Shown: in pieces, positions 6,337-15,272 of the stretch
How positions within the stretch are numbered: position 1 is the stretch's first letter
Layout of the letters: every line of letters begins with the position of its first letter
Source: Nitratireductor thuwali
GTDB taxonomy: Bacteria; Pseudomonadota; Alphaproteobacteria; Rhizobiales; Rhizobiaceae
NCBI RefSeq assembly: GCF_036621415.1
Contig: NZ_CP030941.1
Location: 868,001 to 932,000 of the forward strand
DNA length: 64,000 bases
Direction: 5' to 3'
Position numbers and translations under genes: made by a program
Notes under the pieces: model-generated
Told to the model about the DNA's origin: nothing
Databases searched by the model: none
The model's input: the letters and a program-made list of their open reading frames with translations, nothing else

Positions 6337-7497
6337 CTAACGCGACGGCCAGGCCCAGGGCGGGCGGGGATGTTCTTCCAGAACGACCGTCTCGCCCAGT
6401 TCCTTGGCAAGGGTGAATGCCACGGCGCCTTCCTTTTCCGCGAGAGCATCGGCCAGGACGGCGGAGTGGGTGATGACGATCACCTGGGAACGTTCTGCCG
6501 CCTGCCCGATCAGCCGGCCGAGCGGCCTGATCAAGTCCGGATGGAGGCTCGTTTCCGGCTCATTCAGGACGAGAAGAGAAGACGGCCTCGGCGACAGGAG
6601 CGCGGCGACCAGGAGCAGGTAACGCAAGGTTCCGTCCGAGAACTCCGCCGCCCGCAGCGGACGCAGCAGACCGGGCTGCCGCATGAGCACTTCAAACGGC
6701 CCCTTGTCGATGGAGACTTCGATGCGGCTGCCGGGGAAAGCGTCATCGATCGCTGTTTCCAACTCGTCGCGCGCGCCGATCTCCATGATCGTGCGCAGCG
6801 CCGCCGCCAGATCTGAACCGTCCGACGCCAGGACCGGCGTCCGCGTGCCGATCTGCGGCAGGCGCGAAGCGGCTTCGGGATCGGTCCGGAAATGATCGTA
6901 GAACCGCCACGCCCGCATGCGCTCGCGCAGATAGAGCAGTTCAGGCGCGGCGCGCGGGTCGGCCGCATGGGTCATCATGCTGTCGTAGGAGGCAAGGTCC
7001 GTCAGGACGCTTCTGCGCGCGCCGACCTCGTCCCGGACGGAGACGTGGCCCCTTGTGCGCTCGGCGAACGCGTTGCTGCGCCCCAGGCTCTCACCGACCC
7101 AGACCGCTTCGGCCTTGATCGCGGGGTCCCTCGCGAAGGCGCTGCCCATATCGTCCGCGAGAAGCCCGAGATCGATCGCGTAGCCGTAGTCTTCGTCGGC
7201 AAAACCGAGCTTCAGGCTCACCGGGTTCTTCCGCACCGTACCCTGAACCGGCTGCTCGCCGCGTTTCATGGCGGCCGAAAACTGCTCCGGCCCGGCCCAC
7301 AGCGTGGAGTCCAGCCCGCCCTCCCTGGCGAGCGCGCCGACCACACCGCCCTGGGCGGTCTCGGCCAGAAGCCGGATTGCCCTGTAGAGGCTCGACTTGC
7401 CGCTTCCATTGGCGCCGGAGACCACGTTGAGCCTTCCGAGCGGCAGGACGAGTTCGCGCAAGGAGCGGTAGCCGGAAACGGCCAGGGTAAGAATCAT
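6337..7497 (-). CDS. AAA family ATPase (SMC/RecF-like, AAA_21 type)
   Basis: 386 aa single-domain ABC/SMC-type ATPase. Walker A is GANGSGKSS (28-36), and a late LLVLNEPETSLHPDLI segment carries Walker B and the D-loop, followed by IVITHSAVL (switch His). No TOPRIM nuclease or coiled-coil arm is present, so it is not a full OLD nuclease or RecF. Proteins like this occur alone or with a partner nuclease in defence and repair contexts. Here the neighbours are fhs (minus) and the DUF2333-type gene, with no obvious partner. Function is unknown beyond ATP binding. Confidence 0.85.
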   Translation of the reverse strand: MILTLAVSGYRSLRELVLPLGRLNVVSGANGSGKSSLYRAIRLLAETAQGGVVGALAREGGLDSTLWAGPEQFSAAMKRGEQPVQGTVRKNPVSLKLGFADEDYGYAIDLGLLADDMGSAFARDPAIKAEAVWVGESLGRSNAFAERTRGHVSVRDEVGARRSVLTDLASYDSMMTHAADPRAAPELLYLRERMRAWRFYDHFRTDPEAASRLPQIGTRTPVLASDGSDLAAALRTIMEIGARDELETAIDDAFPGSRIEVSIDKGPFEVLMRQPGLLRPLRAAEFSDGTLRYLLLVAALLSPRPSSLLVLNEPETSLHPDLIRPLGRLIGQAAERSQVIVITHSAVLADALAEKEGAVAFTLAKELGETVVLEEHPRPPWAWPSR

Positions 7498-7559: not shown

Positions 7560-8681
7560 TCAGCGGTCCAGTACTTGTCGAAGCTCCACAAGATTGGAGC
7601 GCACCCGCAGGATGTAGAAGCCCATGGTGGCGAGGTGCGTCGGCATGATCCAGCCCGCCTCGCGGCCGTTGGAAATGATGAAGGGCGTGATGTTGAGGGC
7701 GGCGCGAAGCTGGCTCTCGGTGGTATCCCACAGCGAGCCCAGCGAGCGCTGGTTTACAACGTCCTCGAAATCGGCCCGCGCGGCGTGCAAAAGACCGTAA
7801 TAGCCGTAGAGCTGGCCATAGGCGAACCAGAAACGGTCGTCGGCGCGTGTGTCGAACCAGCCGCTATTGTAGTTTTCCGACCGCTCGCGCAGGATCGCGG
7901 ATGTGGAGCCGATATCGTTGGCGATGCGGTCCAGGAACTGGATGAGATTGTCGGCGCGGGCGTCGAAGACGGCTTCGCAGCTCTCGAGCCGGTCGTTGAA
8001 GCGGCGCAGGCTTTCGATGGCCGTGCGGTAGAAGCCGGGCGTGGGGATCTTCGGGCCGAACGGGTCGAGGCCGAAATACCACGCGTTTTCCGAAAACTGG
8101 ATACTTTCGCGCGCCTTCTGCAGGTCGCTATCGATCTGCGACGTCCCGCGCACGCGCCCGAGCGCGTCGACCAGCTCCACCGCCGTGCGGCGCACCGTCT
8201 GGTTCACCCCGCGCTGAAAGGAGGCCTTGTTGTCGAAGAACGGCGTGTCGTCCCAATCGATGAAGAAGAAGCCCGTCTTGTAGAGAAGCATGGAGGATAT
8301 CCATGCGTTCTGGTTGACGTTGAAATCCGTCAGATCGGCCGCCACCTCGGCAATGGCCGAGCGCCCGCAGGTGCGGGCCTCGCCGCCTTCGGTGGCCATG
8401 ACCTGCTCGCCGGCCGAAACCGCGCGGCTTTCCAAATCGTAGGCCTGCACATAGTCGGGGTTGAAATTCGTCCACACCTGGGTCTGCCAGAAGAAATAGG
8501 CGTAGAGCCCGACGAAAAGCAGAACCACCGAGCCCACGGCCAACTGCAGCACCCAGCCGCGCCGGCGATACCACCGGGCGGCCGCCATGAACGGCCAGGC
8601 GAGCCAGGCAACGACATAGCCGATGCCGCGGCCGATCCACAGGAAGACGCGGGCGAAGAAATTCACGATCGGCTCAAGCAC
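7560..8681 (-). CDS. DUF2333-type membrane-anchored protein
   Basis: 373 aa. I start at the GTG at 8681, preceded by GAGGGG, rather than an upstream codon, because the protein then begins with VLEPIVNFFARVFLWIG and runs into a strong transmembrane helix (about residues 41-65). The rest (about 70-373) is predicted soluble and periplasmic or cytosolic. Its C-terminus, with an NGREAGWIMPTHLATMGFY region, matches my recollection of DUF2333. It is the last gene of the minus-strand block and overlaps nothing. Neighbouring AAA+ and coiled-coil genes suggest it is the membrane anchor of that assembly (inference). Confidence 0.75.
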   Translation of the reverse strand: MLEPIVNFFARVFLWIGRGIGYVVAWLAWPFMAAARWYRRRGWVLQLAVGSVVLLFVGLYAYFFWQTQVWTNFNPDYVQAYDLESRAVSAGEQVMATEGGEARTCGRSAIAEVAADLTDFNVNQNAWISSMLLYKTGFFFIDWDDTPFFDNKASFQRGVNQTVRRTAVELVDALGRVRGTSQIDSDLQKARESIQFSENAWYFGLDPFGPKIPTPGFYRTAIESLRRFNDRLESCEAVFDARADNLIQFLDRIANDIGSTSAILRERSENYNSGWFDTRADDRFWFAYGQLYGYYGLLHAARADFEDVVNQRSLGSLWDTTESQLRAALNITPFIISNGREAGWIMPTHLATMGFYILRVRSNLVELRQVLDR

Positions 8682-8692
8682 GGCACCACCCC

Positions 8693-9976
8693 TCAATCCA
8701 GCCCGAAAAGAAGCCGGCGCAGCGCCCGCTTGTCCTTGAGATAGGTGGTCTTGAGCGTCTCCACAACATGGGCGCGCCACGGCTCGGGATAGGTTTCGTA
8801 ATCACGGTAAAAACCCTGCTTGTTGAAGACGTAGCGCATGAGGAAATCGAAGGGCGCGTAGTCCGAGAGGAGCCGGTTCACCAGCCATGCGTCCGCATGC
8901 GCGGGGTTGGCCCGCACCACCATCAGCCGCTGCGCCGGCGAAAGCTCGGCCATTTTCAACTGGCCGAGCTGTCGGATTTCGCGCAGCGCCGCATTGAAGA
9001 AGGGATAACGGCCATCGCGGTTCACCCGATCCGCGTGCCGGTGCATCCAGGTTTGCAGCCAGACCTGGTCGGCCTTAGAAAAGTCCCGCTCGGGCTCGGT
9101 TCGCCGGATGAGATCGGCAAGCGCCAGCGTGGCGCGGTGCTCGAGGAAGCCGGAGCGCTCGACCCAGGAAGCGCGGGGCAGCTCGATGCGGCCCGTCTCG
9201 GCCAGGAACCGGTAGATGCGCTCCTTGTCGTCCAGCGACAGATAGCTGACCTGCCAGGGGCGCGAGCGGCGGAAGCCGGGCGCGTTGCGGTCGGCGATCA
9301 CGGTCGTCGTATCGCGGTCGGCAAACACGTAGACCCCGCCGAAATGGCTGGTCCAGTAAGCATCGTGCCGGAAGATCACCTGATCGGGTACCAGCGCATT
9401 GTCGCGGATGTCGCCGGTCTCCTTCGCCAGTTCCACCATGCGCTTCAAGAGCCCATCGTCGCGCCACGCGTCGGGCTCCTGCTTCAGCCGGTCGGACAGA
9501 CGGCCGAGTTCGGCGGCCTTGCCCAAAAGATCCTCCGCCGAAAGAACCTTGAACTCGACCTGCCCGATCGACAGCAGATCCTCGATATCCTCGACCCGGG
9601 CGACATGCTCTTCGATCTCGCCATAGATCACGTCCCTGATGGTGATCGCGTTGATCGACCGCGCATTCTTGCTCATGAACTCGTAGATGAGCTCGGATGT
9701 ATTGGAAAAGGCCGTGTGCACCACCGGCAGGTCGATCTGCGAAGGCGTGAGGATGATGAAGCGGCGGTTGACCTGATTGGGGTCGAGATAATGCTCGTCG
9801 CCCAGTTCCTCGGCGATTTGCGGCGAAAAGCCGGTGCGGTCGATGTCGAAGGATCGAAGCTTGGTCGGCGCGAGGCCGAAGGCGCCGAGCGCCTTGTTGT
9901 ATCGCGCGACCAGATGCGGCTCCTCGACGGTGAGGAGGCGGCCATAGATGAGCTCGTTTTCGTAGAGGCGGTTCAT
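8693..9976 (-). CDS. Conserved protein of unknown function (427 aa) in the AAA+/coiled-coil block
   Basis: I do not recognise a characterised family. The protein is soluble, acidic in its first half, with no signal peptide or membrane helix. The N-terminal 130 residues look like an alpha/beta domain (RRFIILTPSQIDLPVVHTAF). The C-terminal half is helical and rich in Arg, Trp and Tyr (VWLQTWMHRHAD, FLMRYVFNKQGFYRDYE). It ends 11 bases before the GTG of the DUF2333-type gene, so the two are almost certainly co-transcribed. Its ATG sits exactly 8 bases after a GC-rich repeat that also supplies the GAGGGG ribosome site. Confidence 0.8.
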   Translation of the reverse strand: MNRLYENELIYGRLLTVEEPHLVARYNKALGAFGLAPTKLRSFDIDRTGFSPQIAEELGDEHYLDPNQVNRRFIILTPSQIDLPVVHTAFSNTSELIYEFMSKNARSINAITIRDVIYGEIEEHVARVEDIEDLLSIGQVEFKVLSAEDLLGKAAELGRLSDRLKQEPDAWRDDGLLKRMVELAKETGDIRDNALVPDQVIFRHDAYWTSHFGGVYVFADRDTTTVIADRNAPGFRRSRPWQVSYLSLDDKERIYRFLAETGRIELPRASWVERSGFLEHRATLALADLIRRTEPERDFSKADQVWLQTWMHRHADRVNRDGRYPFFNAALREIRQLGQLKMAELSPAQRLMVVRANPAHADAWLVNRLLSDYAPFDFLMRYVFNKQGFYRDYETYPEPWRAHVVETLKTTYLKDKRALRRLLFGLD

Positions 9977-9984
9977 GCCGCCCG

Positions 9985-10017
9985 CCCCTCACCCTTACCC
10001 AGCAAGCGGGGAGAGGA
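9985..10017 (-). repeat. GC-rich repeat copy 1, reaching the ribosome site of the 427-aa gene
   Basis: Copy of a repeat whose core is TCTCCCCGC-TTGC-GGGGAGA followed by GGGTAAGGGTGAGGGG. Here the hairpin is imperfect, but the GTAAGGGTGAGGGG tail is complete and points toward the start codon at 9976, with 8 bases between GAGGGG and ATG. Confidence 0.75.
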
Positions 10018-10087
10018 GGACATAAATGCGGGCACGCTCAGTACATGGCGCAGGCGCAAAAAAATCGGATCGTCAAAGTGGGTGCCC

Positions 10088-10127
10088 CCCTCTCCCCGCT
10101 TGCGGGGAGAGGGTAAGGGTGAGGGGC
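10088..10127 (+). repeat. GC-rich repeat copy 2 (opposite orientation)
   Basis: Perfect core hairpin (CTCCCCGC-TTGC-GGGGAG with flanks) plus the GGGTAAGGGTGAGGGG tail, read on the plus strand. It lies between the DUF559 stop (10155) and the 427-aa gene, so copies 1 and 2 face each other and could pair in a transcript. Confidence 0.75.
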
Positions 10128-10154
10128 GAGCGCCCACTTCCAAGACAAACGCCA

Positions 10155-10574
10155 TCAATATTCGGGCTCTCCAGCAACGGAACTGGCGGGGATAAAACGC
10201 ATGTCCGGCGCATTCACTGCAGCGACCAACCGTTCGTCGAGCGCAGCAAGAATCGTCTCTGTCACCGAATCACGTTCCTTCAGGACATCGCCATTCCAGA
10301 ATCGCAAAATCGACCATCCTTGACTAACCATGAACACGTCCCGTGTCCTGTCATGAGCGCTTTCGACATGCTGGCTGCCATCGACTTCCACCACTAATCG
10401 CCGCTCCCGGCAGGCAAAATCGGCAAAATAGGGACCGATGGGCAATTGCCGCACGAACTTATAGCCATTGAGACGGCGGTTACGTAGCTCCGTCCACAAC
10501 GCTGCTTCTGCACCATTGTCCGCCTGCCGGAGTCCGCGTGCTTTGTCGGTTCTGCGTGAGTTTGCATCACGCAT
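10155..10574 (-). CDS. DUF559 (Vsr/PD-(D/E)XK-like) endonuclease-domain protein
   Basis: 139 aa. It matches the small DUF559 family related to very-short-patch repair endonucleases: an N-terminal ADNGAEAALWTELRNRRLNGYKFVRQ segment, the core IGPYFADFACRERRLVVEVDGSQH with the expected D, E-x-D residues (about 68-86), and a GWSILRFWNGDVL stretch. Biological roles of free-standing members are mostly unknown. It is inserted within the AAA+/coiled-coil block and bracketed by GC-rich repeats, which suggests it entered as a small mobile cassette. Its start has the same repeat-plus-8-base layout as the 427-aa gene. Confidence 0.85.
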   Translation of the reverse strand: MRDANSRRTDKARGLRQADNGAEAALWTELRNRRLNGYKFVRQLPIGPYFADFACRERRLVVEVDGSQHVESAHDRTRDVFMVSQGWSILRFWNGDVLKERDSVTETILAALDERLVAAVNAPDMRFIPASSVAGEPEY

Positions 10575-10582
10575 CGCGCCCG

Positions 10583-10623
10583 CCCCTCACCCTTACCCTC
10601 TCCCCGCAAGCGGGGAGAGGGGG
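10583..10623 (-). repeat. GC-rich repeat copy 3, reaching the ribosome site of the DUF559 gene
   Basis: Same repeat as copies 1 and 2, with a perfect hairpin (CTCCCCGC-AAGC-type loop-GGGGAG) and the GGGTAAGGGTGAGGGG tail toward the start at 10574. The spacing between GAGGGG and ATG is 8 bases, identical to copy 1. Confidence 0.75.
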
Positions 10624-10694
10624 TCGCAAATGCTTGCGACGACCTCGTTCAACGCCGAAAGGGGCGCAGCAAGATATGGGCGCTTATGTCTTCG

Positions 10695-10714
10695 TCTCCC
10701 CGTAAACGGGGAGA
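10695..10714. repeat. GC-rich repeat core, partial copy 4
   Basis: TCTCCCCG-TAAA-CGGGGAGA perfect palindromic hairpin without the long tail, just after the stop of the AAA+ gene (10726). It may serve as a transcript-end hairpin there. Confidence 0.6.
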
Positions 10715-10725
10715 AGGGCAATACA

Positions 10726-12636
10726 TCAGCCATCCCATGCTCCCCTCGCCTTCATCGCCTTGATCTCCCGCACCGCCCTTTCCCTGAGCCGCTGGTCGCG
10801 CACCAGATTGTTCACCGCCGTCTCGTCGGCGCGGTCGGCGTAGCGGAATTCCGAATCCGCATAGCGGTTGATCTCCTGCATCACCATCGCCATGGTGAAG
10901 GGCCGGCGCAGCTCGGCGATCATGGACTTCTTCTCATCGTAGGATTTGCGCATGAAGAGATCGGGCGTTTCGAACCATTCGTCGGGCAGCTCGATGTCCA
11001 TGACGCGCATCTTGATGGCGTCGGTGATGTTGCGGATCGCGCGGCCGGTGAAGCGGGGCTCGGCCTGCTTGATCATGTGCAGATAGGCGCCGATATCGGC
11101 CAGGGTCCTGGGCTCTCCGACATCGTTCAGGAAGCGCTCATAGACGCGCTGCAGCCCCTCCTCCTGCGGCTTCGAATGCGCTTCATAGGCCGTTTCCACC
11201 GCCCGTTTTATCTCTTGCGTGGCGTAGAGGTCGTGATCGCCCAGCGGAATGTTGTGGTTCTTGCCGGCGAGCAGCACGAAGATGTCGATGTAGTCTTCCA
11301 GCGTCTGCGGGCCGTCGACCAGCCACCGGGCGCCGGCTCGCTGGCGCAGCGCATCGTCGACATTCTCGGGATGGTTGGAGAACATGCCGAAGGTGCAATT
11401 GCCGCGCACCACGGTGGTGGCACCGGCGAAGCTTTCCATCAGCACGCCGGAGACTTCCTGCTGGCCGGCCGAGGCTCTGTCGTTAGAGCGCTTGGCGGCC
11501 ACCTGGTCGATGTCGTCGATCGTGCCGAAACCGATGGCGCGCGGGCTGAGCACGTTTTCCACGAACTGCTTGCAGTTCTGGCCGGACTTGCCCTGGTAGG
11601 ACGAGATCTGATCGACGCCGAAATTCTCGTAGTGGAACGGCACGCCCGCCACCTGGCAGTAATCGTTGAGGAGCCCGGCCGTCATCTGGATGAGGATGGT
11701 CTTGCCGGTGCCCGGCGCGCCGTCGCCGATGAAGGTGAAGAGAAAGCCGCCCAACTCCACGAAGGGGTTGAGCTGGCGTTCGAAATCATAGGCCATCAGC
11801 ATCTTGGCGAGCTTCATGGCCTGATATTTGGCGATGTGGTTGCCGATGATCTCGTTCGGCTTCTTGAAGCTCATCGCCAGCGGCTTGCGTTTTTTCCCGG
11901 GCGCCACGTCGAAGCCGTCCAGCGTGAAATCGTCGGCCTCGAGGCGCATATGCGCGTCCTCGAAGGCGCCGAGGCCCGAAAAGCGGCTCTTGCGCTGAAG
12001 AAGCCCTTCGATGGCCACCCGGGCCAGCGCCTTGGCGCGCGCGGTCATCGCCTGTTCGTCCGGCGCGCCGGCAATCGCCGCGTCGAGCCCGGCAACCAGC
12101 GATTTCAGCGCGTCCTGCGGCGTGTCGAACAGGAAATCGGGCTCCTGGCGATCGTTGACGGGCTCGGCGTCCGTCTCCAGCATCTGCGTGAGATAGGCGG
12201 CGAAGGCGAAGGCCGCGACATAGGCCGAGGCCGACAGCAGCGTCTTGTAAGTTTGCGCGGCGTCGCCTTCCAGCGGCGCGCGCGCATTCCTGGCCTGCAG
12301 CGATTCCAGTTCGCTCGCGCGGGCGAAATTGTCGGCGACCGCCAGCGCCACCGCAAGGCCGCGCCGCGCGCGGTAGAGCAGCGTGTGCTGGGCGATGGAC
12401 AGCATCGGATCGTCGGCCCGCACCGCCGCGATGGTGCGGGCAAGCTCGATCTCTCGCGTCCTGCGGACGGAGCCTGTGGAGACGGTCGAGACGAAGCGGC
12501 GGCCGGTGCCGGCAAGCGCCGTCTTGGACCGCCCGCCATCGTCTTCCATCACGACGACGCGCGTCACCAGCGATTGCGCGGTGGCGCGGTGCTTTTCAAC
12601 GTCCTTCTCGTCGATCAGCGTCAGGCCGGTATCCAT
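10726..12636 (-). CDS. AAA+ ATPase, 636 aa, of unknown role
   Basis: A large N-terminal helical region (1-280) precedes one AAA+ domain. Walker A is GDGAPGTGKT near residue 310, a Walker-B-like GFGTIDDIDQVA follows, then a sensor segment FGMFSNHPENVDDALRQRAGAR with a probable Arg finger, and a helical lid to the C-terminus. It lacks protease, helicase or kinase domains. It is the motor gene of the minus-strand block between the 381-aa protein and the DUF559 gene, and the downstream 427-aa and DUF2333-type genes read the same way. Such context fits remodelling of a membrane-linked coiled-coil assembly, which is inference. Confidence 0.85.
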   Translation of the reverse strand: MDTGLTLIDEKDVEKHRATAQSLVTRVVVMEDDGGRSKTALAGTGRRFVSTVSTGSVRRTREIELARTIAAVRADDPMLSIAQHTLLYRARRGLAVALAVADNFARASELESLQARNARAPLEGDAAQTYKTLLSASAYVAAFAFAAYLTQMLETDAEPVNDRQEPDFLFDTPQDALKSLVAGLDAAIAGAPDEQAMTARAKALARVAIEGLLQRKSRFSGLGAFEDAHMRLEADDFTLDGFDVAPGKKRKPLAMSFKKPNEIIGNHIAKYQAMKLAKMLMAYDFERQLNPFVELGGFLFTFIGDGAPGTGKTILIQMTAGLLNDYCQVAGVPFHYENFGVDQISSYQGKSGQNCKQFVENVLSPRAIGFGTIDDIDQVAAKRSNDRASAGQQEVSGVLMESFAGATTVVRGNCTFGMFSNHPENVDDALRQRAGARWLVDGPQTLEDYIDIFVLLAGKNHNIPLGDHDLYATQEIKRAVETAYEAHSKPQEEGLQRVYERFLNDVGEPRTLADIGAYLHMIKQAEPRFTGRAIRNITDAIKMRVMDIELPDEWFETPDLFMRKSYDEKKSMIAELRRPFTMAMVMQEINRYADSEFRYADRADETAVNNLVRDQRLRERAVREIKAMKARGAWDG

Positions 12637-12652
12637 GGGGCGCCTCCGTGCT

Positions 12653-12920
12653 TAGGGTCAGGACCGATTAATATGGCCACAATGGTCGGCCTGATTTGTG
12701 CGGATACGCGGAGTAGGACCGTAGGTAGACTTTACGTCTTTCAAAGTCTTGCGACAAAGTAGCCCGTGCAAATCAGGCCGATCCGAAGGACGTTCGATAG
12801 ACCGGCGAGCTGCCGCGTCAAAGCCCTTGACCGGGGGGAAGACCCCGCTCTGCGGGCTTTTCCTTGCATCTCTTGGTCTATCGAACGCCATTGTGGTCAT
12901 ATTAATAGGTCCTGACCCTA
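12653..12920. mobile_element. 268-bp miniature inverted-repeat element (MITE-like) with nested inverted repeats
   Basis: Outer 33-bp inverted repeats (12653-12685 and 12888-12920) match at 31 of 33 positions and begin TAGGGTCAGGACC. The outermost bases are TA on both sides, as expected for the TA target duplication of IS630/Tc1-type elements. Inside are two further perfect 13-bp pairs: 12686-12698 with 12769-12781, and 12791-12803 with 12875-12887. Each directly abuts an outer repeat or the other pair, so the single strand can fold into a three-stem cruciform. There is no transposase gene. It separates the AAA+ gene from the 381-aa gene. Confidence 0.8.
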
Positions 12921-14063
12921 AACATCCGTAATCACCCCGCCGGCCGAAACGACATGGACCTTGTAGCCGTCGAATATCCTGCCCGCTTCGCCGCTGGCGT
13001 AGAGCGCCTGGTAGGCTTCGTGCGGCACCAGCGCGTGCTTTTCATAGGCGCTGACACCCATGCGGGCAGCTTCCAGATCGTCGGTCTCCAGATGGAACTC
13101 CTCGCGCGGCGGCTGACTGGACCAGAGCCCCTTCCTGCCCGGCTGCTCGGCCTTCGAATAGACCTCCTGCACGGTCCAGGTCAAAAGCCAGGCATTGTCC
13201 TGCCGGCGCACCTTCGCCAGCACCTCGGAGACGGTCGAATTGTGCGCGGTGATGCCGGCCGTATAGAACGGCCCAAGCACGACGCGGCGCAGCTGCTTTG
13301 GGTGCAGCGTGTCGAAATCGCGGTCGAGATTGGTGGCGATGGTGGCGGGCGAGAGCGAATAGGAGGAGTTCCTTTCCGCGAAATCGTCGAAACGGTGGGC
13401 AAGGTCCGGATTGAGCAGGCCGCCAACCGGCAGCGGGATCTCGACATCCTCGTTGAGCCGGCCCTCGCCGGTGACCAGCGAGGCCGTCATGTTTTCCGAC
13501 GAATCCTCGACCGCGGCCATATAGACCAGCGGCAGATTGGCCGCCCCGTCGAACGCGCCCCAGTGGACGATGTAGTAGGGTCTTTTCGTTCTTGGATTTA
13601 CCGAAACGCGCACGGTTTCCGGCAGGACGAGCGGCGAGAACACGCGGCCTTCGCGCACATCCTCGAGATAGAGCCGCTCGGCCATGGCGCGCTGCAATTC
13701 GCCCGGAAAGGCGCGGTGGCGCAGGATGAAGTCCACCATCTCCTCGCGCAGCGTCTGGGGCTCGGCGATCGATGCCAGACGCTTGTCAGCCTCACGCCGG
13801 TCGTTCTCCAGTTCGAGCACGTTTTGAAACAGCGGATAGCCGCTTTCGGCACGCTGGATGCGGAAGCTTTCGAGAAAACCCAGCCGGTTCTTCCACGCCC
13901 GGAAGGAATGTTCCAGCCGCGCGATATAGGGCATGACGGTTTCGGCCACGAGGTCGTTACGCCGATAGGGCGAGGCCCGGCTGTCGGCGAGATAGGCGCC
14001 AAGACCGTCGAGCGCCGCGGCAATGGCATCAAAATAGCGGTTGGCAGCTTCGTTGGTGCTCAT
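12918..14063 (-). CDS. Conserved protein of unknown function (381 aa), second gene of the AAA+/coiled-coil block
   Basis: I do not recognise its family. The first 130 residues are helical and charged. A beta-rich middle (about 150-260: PYYIVHWGAFDGAANLPLVYMAAVE) and a mixed C-terminal part follow. There is no signal peptide or membrane helix. It lies 37 bases after the coiled-coil gene. Its TAG stop (12918-12920) is formed by the TA boundary and first G of the miniature element, so the natural C-terminus may have been longer or different. Cytosolic partner of the AAA+ ATPase is a guess from context. Confidence 0.8.
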   Translation of the reverse strand: MSTNEAANRYFDAIAAALDGLGAYLADSRASPYRRNDLVAETVMPYIARLEHSFRAWKNRLGFLESFRIQRAESGYPLFQNVLELENDRREADKRLASIAEPQTLREEMVDFILRHRAFPGELQRAMAERLYLEDVREGRVFSPLVLPETVRVSVNPRTKRPYYIVHWGAFDGAANLPLVYMAAVEDSSENMTASLVTGEGRLNEDVEIPLPVGGLLNPDLAHRFDDFAERNSSYSLSPATIATNLDRDFDTLHPKQLRRVVLGPFYTAGITAHNSTVSEVLAKVRRQDNAWLLTWTVQEVYSKAEQPGRKGLWSSQPPREEFHLETDDLEAARMGVSAYEKHALVPHEAYQALYASGEAGRIFDGYKVHVVSAGGVITDV

Positions 14064-14100
14064 GGAGCTATTCCCATGCCCCCGTGCGTTCCCGTCACCA

Positions 14101-15189
14101 TCACTGCCTGACGTAGTTCGCCGCGTCGTGCTTCTTCATCACGTCGTCGAACCGGCGCGCGAAAGCATCGTCGGCCAGCTTCTTGCGGCGCTGGATGTCG
14201 GCGGTCGTCACCATGTTCTTCTCGTGCAGTTCCAGAAGATCGCCGATATGGCGCTGGGCCGCCGCGCCGATGCCGGCCATCGTTTCCTCGGCGGTGTTGT
14301 CGACCTGACTGCCCAGCGTGTTGATGCGGTGGGCGACGTCCTGCTGGGCCGCCGTCTTCAGCGAATCCTCCAGCGCCTTGTAGAGCACGATGCGCTGCTC
14401 GGTATCGATGGTCAGCTTGTTGATGAGGGTCGATTGCGCGGCGATCTGATTGTTGAGCGAATCCACGAAGGTCTGGAACATCGAGGTGTAGCGCTCCAGC
14501 GTCTGGCTCTCGGCCAGAAGCTCCTGCTCCTTCGCCTGCGCTTCATTGTATTCGGTGGCCAGTCTGGAGCGTTCGCCTTCGAGCTGGGTACGGTCCTTTT
14601 GGCTGGTCGAGGCTGAAATCCTGTTCTCGATGTCGAGAAGCATGGGGTTGAGCTCCTCGATGCGCTTTTGCGTCGCCTCAAGCCTGTCCATGGCCGTCTT
14701 GCGCCGCTCGATCACCTTGGCAAGGCTCGCCTCGGATGTGGCATAGCGGCTTTCCAGTACCTGCTTCTGCTCCTTGAGGATGCCGGTGATCGTGTCGGAC
14801 TTCGCCAGCAGCTCCTGCAGATTGCCTGCCAGCGACATGTTGCGCACGCGCTCGGTGCGCATGCGCTGCTTGCGCTGCCTGGAAAAGATGCCGATGAAGT
14901 TTTCCCAGCCCGAATAGCTCTTCATGCTCTCGAACTCGGCGCCGAAGACGTTGGTGGCGTCCTCGAGGCCGATGATGAGGTCGGCGATATTGGCCTCCAT
15001 CACCTTCTGCTGCTTGAGCACGTCCTGGATGCGGGCATTCTCGATGTCGAAGTCGGCCTGGCCGACGGTCTGGTCGCTCTGCGCCAGCTTTTCCAGCACC
15101 GTCGTCGACTGCTCCATCCGGGAGCGCATTTCCTTGACGACCGATTCCGTCTTCGCGATCTCGGCGTCGAAATTCTGCAGCGTGGCCAT
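14101..15189 (-). CDS. Cytosolic coiled-coil protein (362 aa), first gene of the AAA+/coiled-coil block
   Basis: Almost entirely alpha-helical with long heptad stretches (about residues 1-90, 120-225 and 235-345), and a basic patch between (FIGIFSRQRKQRMRTERVRN, about 107-126). The layout recalls PspA-like and TelA-like (toxic anion resistance) proteins, but I see no diagnostic motif of either. The ATG at 15189 follows AGGAG by 7 bases. It heads the minus-strand block and is separated from thymidine kinase (also minus) by 83 bases. A filament or scaffold acted on by the downstream AAA+ protein is plausible. Confidence 0.85.
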   Translation of the reverse strand: MATLQNFDAEIAKTESVVKEMRSRMEQSTTVLEKLAQSDQTVGQADFDIENARIQDVLKQQKVMEANIADLIIGLEDATNVFGAEFESMKSYSGWENFIGIFSRQRKQRMRTERVRNMSLAGNLQELLAKSDTITGILKEQKQVLESRYATSEASLAKVIERRKTAMDRLEATQKRIEELNPMLLDIENRISASTSQKDRTQLEGERSRLATEYNEAQAKEQELLAESQTLERYTSMFQTFVDSLNNQIAAQSTLINKLTIDTEQRIVLYKALEDSLKTAAQQDVAHRINTLGSQVDNTAEETMAGIGAAAQRHIGDLLELHEKNMVTTADIQRRKKLADDAFARRFDDVMKKHDAANYVRQ

Positions 15190-15272
15190 GCGGTTCTCCT
15201 GGAGGGGCGGCAAGTTCGGCGAATATAGGTTGGAGCCGTGACGAATGGAAGTTGCAGCACGCCTCCCCGGCA

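Follow-up and report, generated by a model that had tools for sequence, protein, structure and literature searches.

A run of co-oriented genes on the minus strand of Nitratireductor thuwali contig NZ_CP030941.1 raises the question of whether a coiled-coil protein, an AAA+ ATPase, a membrane protein and their hypothetical neighbours work as a single machine. The run lies in a window of 64,000 nucleotides, the whole stretch analysed (contig positions 868,001 to 932,000), and all positions below are those of the window. The analysis suggests that the products of four genes, designated CC, P381, AAA and DUF6638, could be one ATP-driven machine, a function that we infer and to which we give somewhat less than an even chance. 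This reading rests on the observations that the four genes behave as a unit in their occurrence, order, transfer and absence, and that CC is conserved only together with the other three. The genes that carry the argument are as follows:

14101..15189, minus strand: CC, a soluble coiled-coil protein of 362 amino acids (aa), first gene of the operon and presumed substrate or scaffold
12918..14063, minus strand: P381, 381 aa, with a helical N-terminal half and a C-terminal half of bb-aa-bb order that weakly resembles the T-fold
10726..12636, minus strand: AAA, 636 aa, a classical-clade AAA ATPase (Pfam AAA, PF00004, 3.1e-11)
8693..9976, minus strand: DUF6638 (PF20343), 427 aa, without a transmembrane (TM) stretch (Pfam, 2.4e-72)
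7560..8681, minus strand: DUF2333 (PF10095), 373 aa, in an open reading frame that extends to 8780 (Pfam, 2.7e-22)

The order of transcription in the window is CC, P381, AAA, DUF559, DUF6638, DUF2333, and all six co-oriented minus-strand genes of the original prediction were present with the same coordinates. Pfam added a family name, DUF6638, to its 427-aa protein (244.6 bits against a curated cut-off of 27) and agreed with its naming of a DUF2333-type protein (79.6 bits against a curated cut-off of 22). The hydrophobic N-terminal stretch of DUF2333 contains a single TM segment at about residues 44-66, numbered from a start at 8690, which was also the start used in the genome searches; the longest frame (start 8780) overlaps DUF6638 by 88 bp, and a codon-usage script favoured a start at 8681. 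CC gave only coiled-coil matches below the Pfam cut-off (best E 0.13), P381 gave no Pfam match, and NCBIfam at its own cut-offs had no name for CC, P381, AAA, DUF6638 or DUF2333. The intact Walker A noted earlier in AAA reads GAPGTGKT (residues 306-313), and an arginine-rich segment, LRQRAGAR, was found at residues 430-437.

Among 121 genomes of the order, Hyphomicrobiales, matches were obtained for AAA in 21, CC in 22, P381 in 21, DUF6638 in 22 and DUF2333 in 28, and the same 21 genomes hold all four core genes. The exceptions are G023, whose only core gene is a diverged CC, and G094 (7% contamination according to its listing), whose only core gene, DUF6638, is accompanied by DUF2333 on a 3170-base contig. 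Gene order was compared in 80 named loci and in further families: wherever at least three core genes are present (114 of 114 loci), these lie on one strand and in one order. Since the loci were selected for holding AAA, DUF6638 or a relative, this count measures order and not co-occurrence, and at least one pair (L031 and L143, on contigs of equal length) is probably one record counted twice. All five genes were called in 93 loci, DUF2333 is missing from 15, and fewer genes were called in the other six: L075, L082, L086, L189 and L190 are short or cut stretches, and in L136 DUF6638 was missed by the gene caller and recovered by a later search. This simple caller misses genes, the window's own DUF559 among them. 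Median intergenic gaps along the operon are 40, 24, 219 and 33 bp. A single genome, G578, is split, with CC-P381-AAA and DUF6638-DUF2333 about 17 kb apart and in opposite directions, and its genus-mate G655 has the usual order. Because the five genes of G578 are split, one transcript is not strictly needed.

Across the phylum, DUF6638 was found in 26 of 398 genomes (11 of the window's own family, 13 Rhodobacteraceae, and one each of families f41 and f94), and clustered protein sets from genomes and metagenomes contain 2912 CC relatives at E 0.001, or 4523 with a wider profile. The regions read outside the own family include 11 from Rhodobacteraceae and those of f41 and f94; CC of the Rhodobacteraceae genome G179 is 100% identical to that of Shimia isoporae P0241. 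Vibrio accounts for four of the ten plasmid-collection records matched by AAA, and the one Vibrio region read has CC-P381-AAA-DUF6638. Trees of the four core proteins from 32 loci have 15-18 of 29 splits in common, and their distances correlate at 0.85-0.94, a congruence for part of which shared ancestry alone would account. In all four trees, two loci from Hyphomicrobiales, L102 (G041) and L108 (G014), nest inside Rhodobacteraceae, and L102 also has DUF1523 (9.4e-61). Because of this placement and of DUF1523 in L102, we read the two as probable cases of an operon transferred entire, membrane module included. Collectively, co-occurrence, fixed order, joint absence and congruent trees support the earlier proposal that the genes form one unit.

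The joint absence of P381, AAA and DUF6638 (hereafter the block) from some loci amounts to a natural experiment. With the odd CC of Rhizobium leguminosarum as query, CC was found in 125 of 199 genomes of the own family, and 40 regions around CC matches were read, including every match whose score was clearly aberrant and a range of ordinary ones. Twenty-nine have P381-AAA-DUF6638 in order (in one of them, L228, a frame break divides AAA into two parts), seven have CC and DUF2333 without the block, in three the contig stops after CC or P381, and the last is the split G578. Adding G023 (L093) and R. leguminosarum BIHB 1148 (L181) gives nine block-less loci, all of which have choX upstream and keep CC and DUF2333 side by side. 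The identity of CC to the window protein is 22.3-35.3% (median 29.5) in these nine loci versus 76.7-85.6% (median 77.9) in 19 block-bearing loci. The corresponding identity of DUF2333 is 62.6-68.6% (median 65.7) in the nine versus 51.2-69.3% (median 60.9) in 18 block-bearing loci. Thus, because CC diverges without the block while DUF2333 is unaffected, CC is constrained by the AAA block and depends on it, and DUF2333 does not.

The state of the block changes at least three times on the tree of DUF2333 (48 loci, two pairs identical) and at least four times on that of choX (38 loci), changes that we read as losses; the sister of G664 (L211), which lacks the block, is G592 (L237), which has it. 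A genome-wide check for the lost genes covered all three in G023 and DUF6638 alone in G216, G360 and G371; in the remaining block-less genomes the absence is known at the site only. No region with enough DNA was missing only one or two of P381, AAA and DUF6638, with G578 counted as complete. In the block-less rows, gaps fill 60% of cells at CC residues 281-300 and 57% at residues 1-20, the latter partly an effect of the script's choice of starts. A docking site at residues 281-300 was considered and is not claimed, as residues 1-20 are gapped to a similar extent and the whole protein diverges.

DUF2333 has a TM stretch in 27 of 27 rows, and beyond it the protein is presumably periplasmic. It is missing from two core-bearing genomes of the order, G041 and G014 (in the latter the contig breaks off), and is found with none of the other four genes in 7 of 121 (G007, G008, G022, G031, G071, G074 and G109, the match in G008 being weak and partial). 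Sixteen core-bearing loci from Rhodobacteraceae, Vibrio and others have no DUF2333; DUF6638 is present in all 16 and DUF1523 in 13, the latter Pfam-confirmed in one Rhodobacteraceae (f60) locus, f41 and f94. The three without DUF1523 are L108 (a cut contig), the Vibrio region read and R. leguminosarum plasmid pRlX5. A small protein (71-100 aa by gene calling) lies in between in the Rhodobacteraceae regions; the three of its rows that were measured each have one or two TM stretches. Kinship between DUF1523 and DUF2333 was tried and rejected (hhalign 0.9%). Since DUF2333 stays without the block, occurs alone in 7 of 121 genomes and is replaced by DUF1523 in 13 of 16 loci, it is not an equal member; on this comparative evidence the core consists of four genes, with an interchangeable membrane part and DUF2333 loosely tied to it. 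The one machine of the original prediction therefore survived as a unit of CC, P381, AAA and DUF6638, with DUF2333 reduced from member to associate. The operon of pRlX5 (L182:5674-13443) is of a diverged type, with CC 55% and AAA 65% identical; it is followed by a sigma-70 gene with six Pfam sigma-70 regions.

Walker A of AAA is conserved in 111 of 111 relatives scored, and Walker B (residues 370-377) reads DD, not the usual DE, in 111 of 111 and in the Vibrio row too. The AAA domain is closest to i-AAA, VCP-like and Rpt ATPases. It shares with FtsH/i-AAA, Cdc48/VCP and proteasomal Rpt proteins the AAA module, Walker A and an arginine-rich second region of homology, but the window protein has a single AAA domain, a match limited to about residues 289-448, and no protease motif; a zinc-protease HExxH after the AAA domain was found in 0 of 114 AAA rows. 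The N-terminal region of about 290 aa had no Pfam match, and so no MIT domain match by Pfam.

A TM stretch was found in 0 of 38 CC rows (maximum KD19 of the window CC, 0.91) and 0 of 37 DUF6638 rows. The AlphaFold2 model of CC is all-helical, and its VIA rows (syntaxin/Sso1, STAT, pore-forming helical proteins, SMC and PspA) are helical bundles from which no kinship is drawn. Foldseek gave no match at E 0.001 for CC or P381, and solved-structure profile searches gave nothing useful for CC, P381 or DUF6638. Residues 161-303 of P381 have a bb-aa-bb order, and most of its top VIA rows, although weak matches, are T-fold proteins; dihydroneopterin aldolase and urate oxidase are grouped in this tunnelling fold. 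If the weakly T-fold-like C-terminal half is real, a ring-forming partner of an AAA hexamer would be unusual.

The likening of the coiled-coil protein to PspA and TelA-like proteins was not upheld at the sequence level; in fold, the generic VIA and Foldseek rows speak neither for nor against an N-terminal alpha1-alpha2 hairpin as in the ESCRT-III/PspA superfamily. CC had no match to Pfam PspA_IM30 (PF04012) and an hhalign probability of 6.7% to PspA; for TelA, PF05816 was not among the listed Pfam matches, and hhalign gave 0.3% (TelA set of four). The window's own genome had no match to either family. PspA is present in 26 of 121 genomes, 7 of them among the 21 that bear the core, which indicates neither clear exclusion nor link, and lies beside the operon in 1 of 122 loci (L102, G041). 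At that locus (L102:3099-4058), a PspA/IM30 gene (1.7e-22) and a YiaAB gene (1.4e-15) stand close downstream of the operon.

In the mechanism that we propose, CC would be a substrate or polymer, and an AAA hexamer, as a remodeller without a protease domain, would grip CC assemblies and dismantle or rearrange them. P381 and DUF6638 could be adaptors or regulators of AAA, and DUF2333, or DUF1523 (often with the small TM protein), may tether CC to the inner membrane and reach into the periplasm. The working plan would resemble that of the Vps4/ESCRT-III pair, in which an AAA motor recycles a helical polymer at the membrane. That CC is the motor's substrate we infer from its constraint by the block, and the membrane site is likewise a proposal. 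The cellular role may be envelope maintenance, membrane remodelling or another.

Several findings weigh against this mechanism. The regions of the natural experiment were chosen and are not a random sample, and, because P381, AAA and DUF6638 are missing together, the source of the constraint on CC is ambiguous and could be P381 or DUF6638 instead of AAA. The Vibrio region read and pRlX5 have neither DUF2333 nor DUF1523, and G578 keeps all five genes though split by rearrangement. The CC model is poor (predicted local distance difference test score 63), its fold matches being generic helical bundles, and the crude TM threshold applied to DUF2333 is also exceeded in 4 of 37 rows for AAA and 1 of 36 for P381. 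The DD at Walker B may mean slow hydrolysis; other AAA+ proteins, such as DnaA, function with DD at this position.

One alternative is that AAA, P381 and DUF6638 are an assembly chaperone, and not a disassembly motor, that builds or inserts a CC-DUF2333 envelope complex, CC having adapted to self-assemble where they are absent. Retention of CC and DUF2333 in nine of nine block-less loci indicates that the pair is useful without the motor, and in these loci CC changes while DUF2333 does not. However, the absence of DUF2333 from 16 core-bearing loci, 13 with DUF1523, shows that it is not the constant product of such a chaperone, and we regard this alternative as rather unlikely.

A genuine Snf7-Vps4 system in bacteria, in which CC would be a divergent member of the ESCRT-III/PspA family, is improbable in our estimate. 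Such systems and the present operon each combine a soluble helical protein and membrane parts with a classical AAA ATPase within a single operon, as far as the portion of PMC11237479 consulted describes AAA partners of PspA and Snf7 in bacterial operons; no arrangement like CC-P381-AAA-DUF6638 was seen in that portion. They differ in that CC has no detected sequence kinship to PspA, and AAA has the 290-aa N-terminal region and the DD Walker B. We know of no counterpart of P381 or DUF6638 in PspA or ESCRT-III-Vps4 systems. CC is likewise similar to TelA (PF05816) in being a soluble helical protein of about 360 aa, but gives no profile match to it.

A further alternative is that the operon is a defence or toxin-related island including the nuclease and a RecF-like ATPase. 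The remaining features of the locus are as follows:

10155..10574, minus strand: DUF559 endonuclease-like gene, 139 aa (Pfam, 5.1e-37), between AAA and DUF6638
10086..10133, plus strand: left arm of a 48-nt inverted repeat flanking DUF559, containing a palindrome
10576..10623, minus strand: right arm of the same repeat, the arms being 98% complementary
12653..12921, no strand: element like a miniature inverted-repeat transposable element (MITE), with 37-nt terminal inverted repeats (12649-12685 and 12888-12924, 92%)
6337-7497, minus strand: RecF/OLD-like ATPase, a seventh co-oriented gene 62 bp after DUF2333
15222..15251, minus strand: candidate promoter of the operon, CTTCCA-N18-TATATT, upstream of CC

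Genes for DUF559, PIN/antitoxin and Fic proteins do insert at operon junctions, and the RecF/OLD-like ATPase, which has the same place in N. luteus and N. soli, matches the PADLOC models HEC-01A (best, 1.8e-49) and AriA (4.2e-30). In contrast, PADLOC (database of 2023) gave no match at E 1 for P381, AAA, DUF6638 or DUF2333 and E 0.02 for CC, no phage record matched AAA at E 1e-5, and DUF559 is present in only 32 of 114 loci. The site is also stable: among the 80 named loci (the 80 best among at least 579, largely from Mesorhizobium, Nitratireductor, Aminobacter and Phyllobacterium), the fetched stretch holds choline-transport or thymidine kinase genes in 78, formate-tetrahydrofolate ligase in 67 and both in 65. 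We consider a defence island very improbable.

The DUF559 gene is not part of the machine. In the near-identical locus of N. luteus (L013), to which proteins 99% identical to the window's CC and P381 probably belong, DUF559 and the MITE-like element are absent, and the P381-AAA and AAA-DUF6638 gaps are 15 and 52 bp; because of these short gaps, both are, by comparison of the two loci, recent insertions. The earlier view of the repeat-flanked DUF559 gene as a later arrival is thereby confirmed. One end of the MITE-like element lies at the P381 stop codon, and the element has eight matches in its own genome, self-pairs included, one being a full-length relative at 67%. The palindromic core of the DUF559 arms (at most one mismatch) has two matches in the window, both there, with 0.01 expected. 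Relatives of DUF559 lie at the AAA-DUF6638 junction in 31 of the 32 loci and at CC-P381 in one, and CTCCCC...GGGGAG palindromes occur no more than 350 bp from the gene on both sides in 22 of 32, on one side in 10 and on neither in none; each locus holds only one to seven such palindromes, and the count is without a random-place control. Palindromes like repetitive extragenic palindromic (REP) sequences are near three of three DUF559 genes of the own genome, and were noted in the window, L200 and L202 (in L202 on one side only). The nuclease and its palindromes resemble a small mobile element organised along the lines of RAYT/REP; among the titles listed by a literature search on DUF559 with palindromes, nothing related was found. 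A Fic-family gene stands in six P381-AAA gaps, and a PIN gene or Phd/YefM-type antitoxin in six to seven AAA-DUF6638 gaps, one of each being Pfam-checked. The AAA-DUF6638 junction of Sinorhizobium meliloti Ak57 (L180:10100-11845) has both a DUF559 gene and an ISRm16 transposase, and is thus a junction that collects insertions.

Visual inspection showed patterns similar to the candidate promoter ahead of CC in several relatives. RpoH-like and EcfG-like patterns were each found upstream of CC in 0 of 107 loci, which says little because shuffled means were only 0.63 and 0.26.

That the genes are neighbours by history alone, each with its own job, as the solitary DUF2333 genes and the split set of G578 might suggest, is scarcely tenable: it is already contradicted for the four core genes by the joint absence of P381, AAA and DUF6638 with CC divergence, through at least three state changes and, in the regions read with enough DNA, never for one or two of the three only; for DUF2333 it may hold.

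As far as open-access literature searches show, the operon is unstudied; searches for DUF6638 and for combined terms found nothing, and DUF2333 appears as a neighbour of a Pseudomonas fluorescens type VI secretion system. We hold it possible, although on balance unlikely, that the operon encodes a further bacterial membrane-remodelling motor, in which an AAA+ hexamer with P381 and DUF6638 as adaptors recycles a CC polymer unrelated to PspA/ESCRT-III and TelA on an interchangeable anchor, and that this motor has spread through Hyphomicrobiales, Rhodobacteraceae and some Vibrio, overlooked as hypothetical proteins and DUFs. The repeated joint absence of the block, with divergence of one partner only, yields a direct genetic prediction as to which of the proteins are in contact, and CC proteins of the R. 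leguminosarum type offer existing comparisons that lack the motor. If the proposed mechanism is true, a large alphaproteobacterial group and some vibrios would carry an unstudied AAA+ machine, and DUF6638, DUF2333 and DUF1523 would gain a function.

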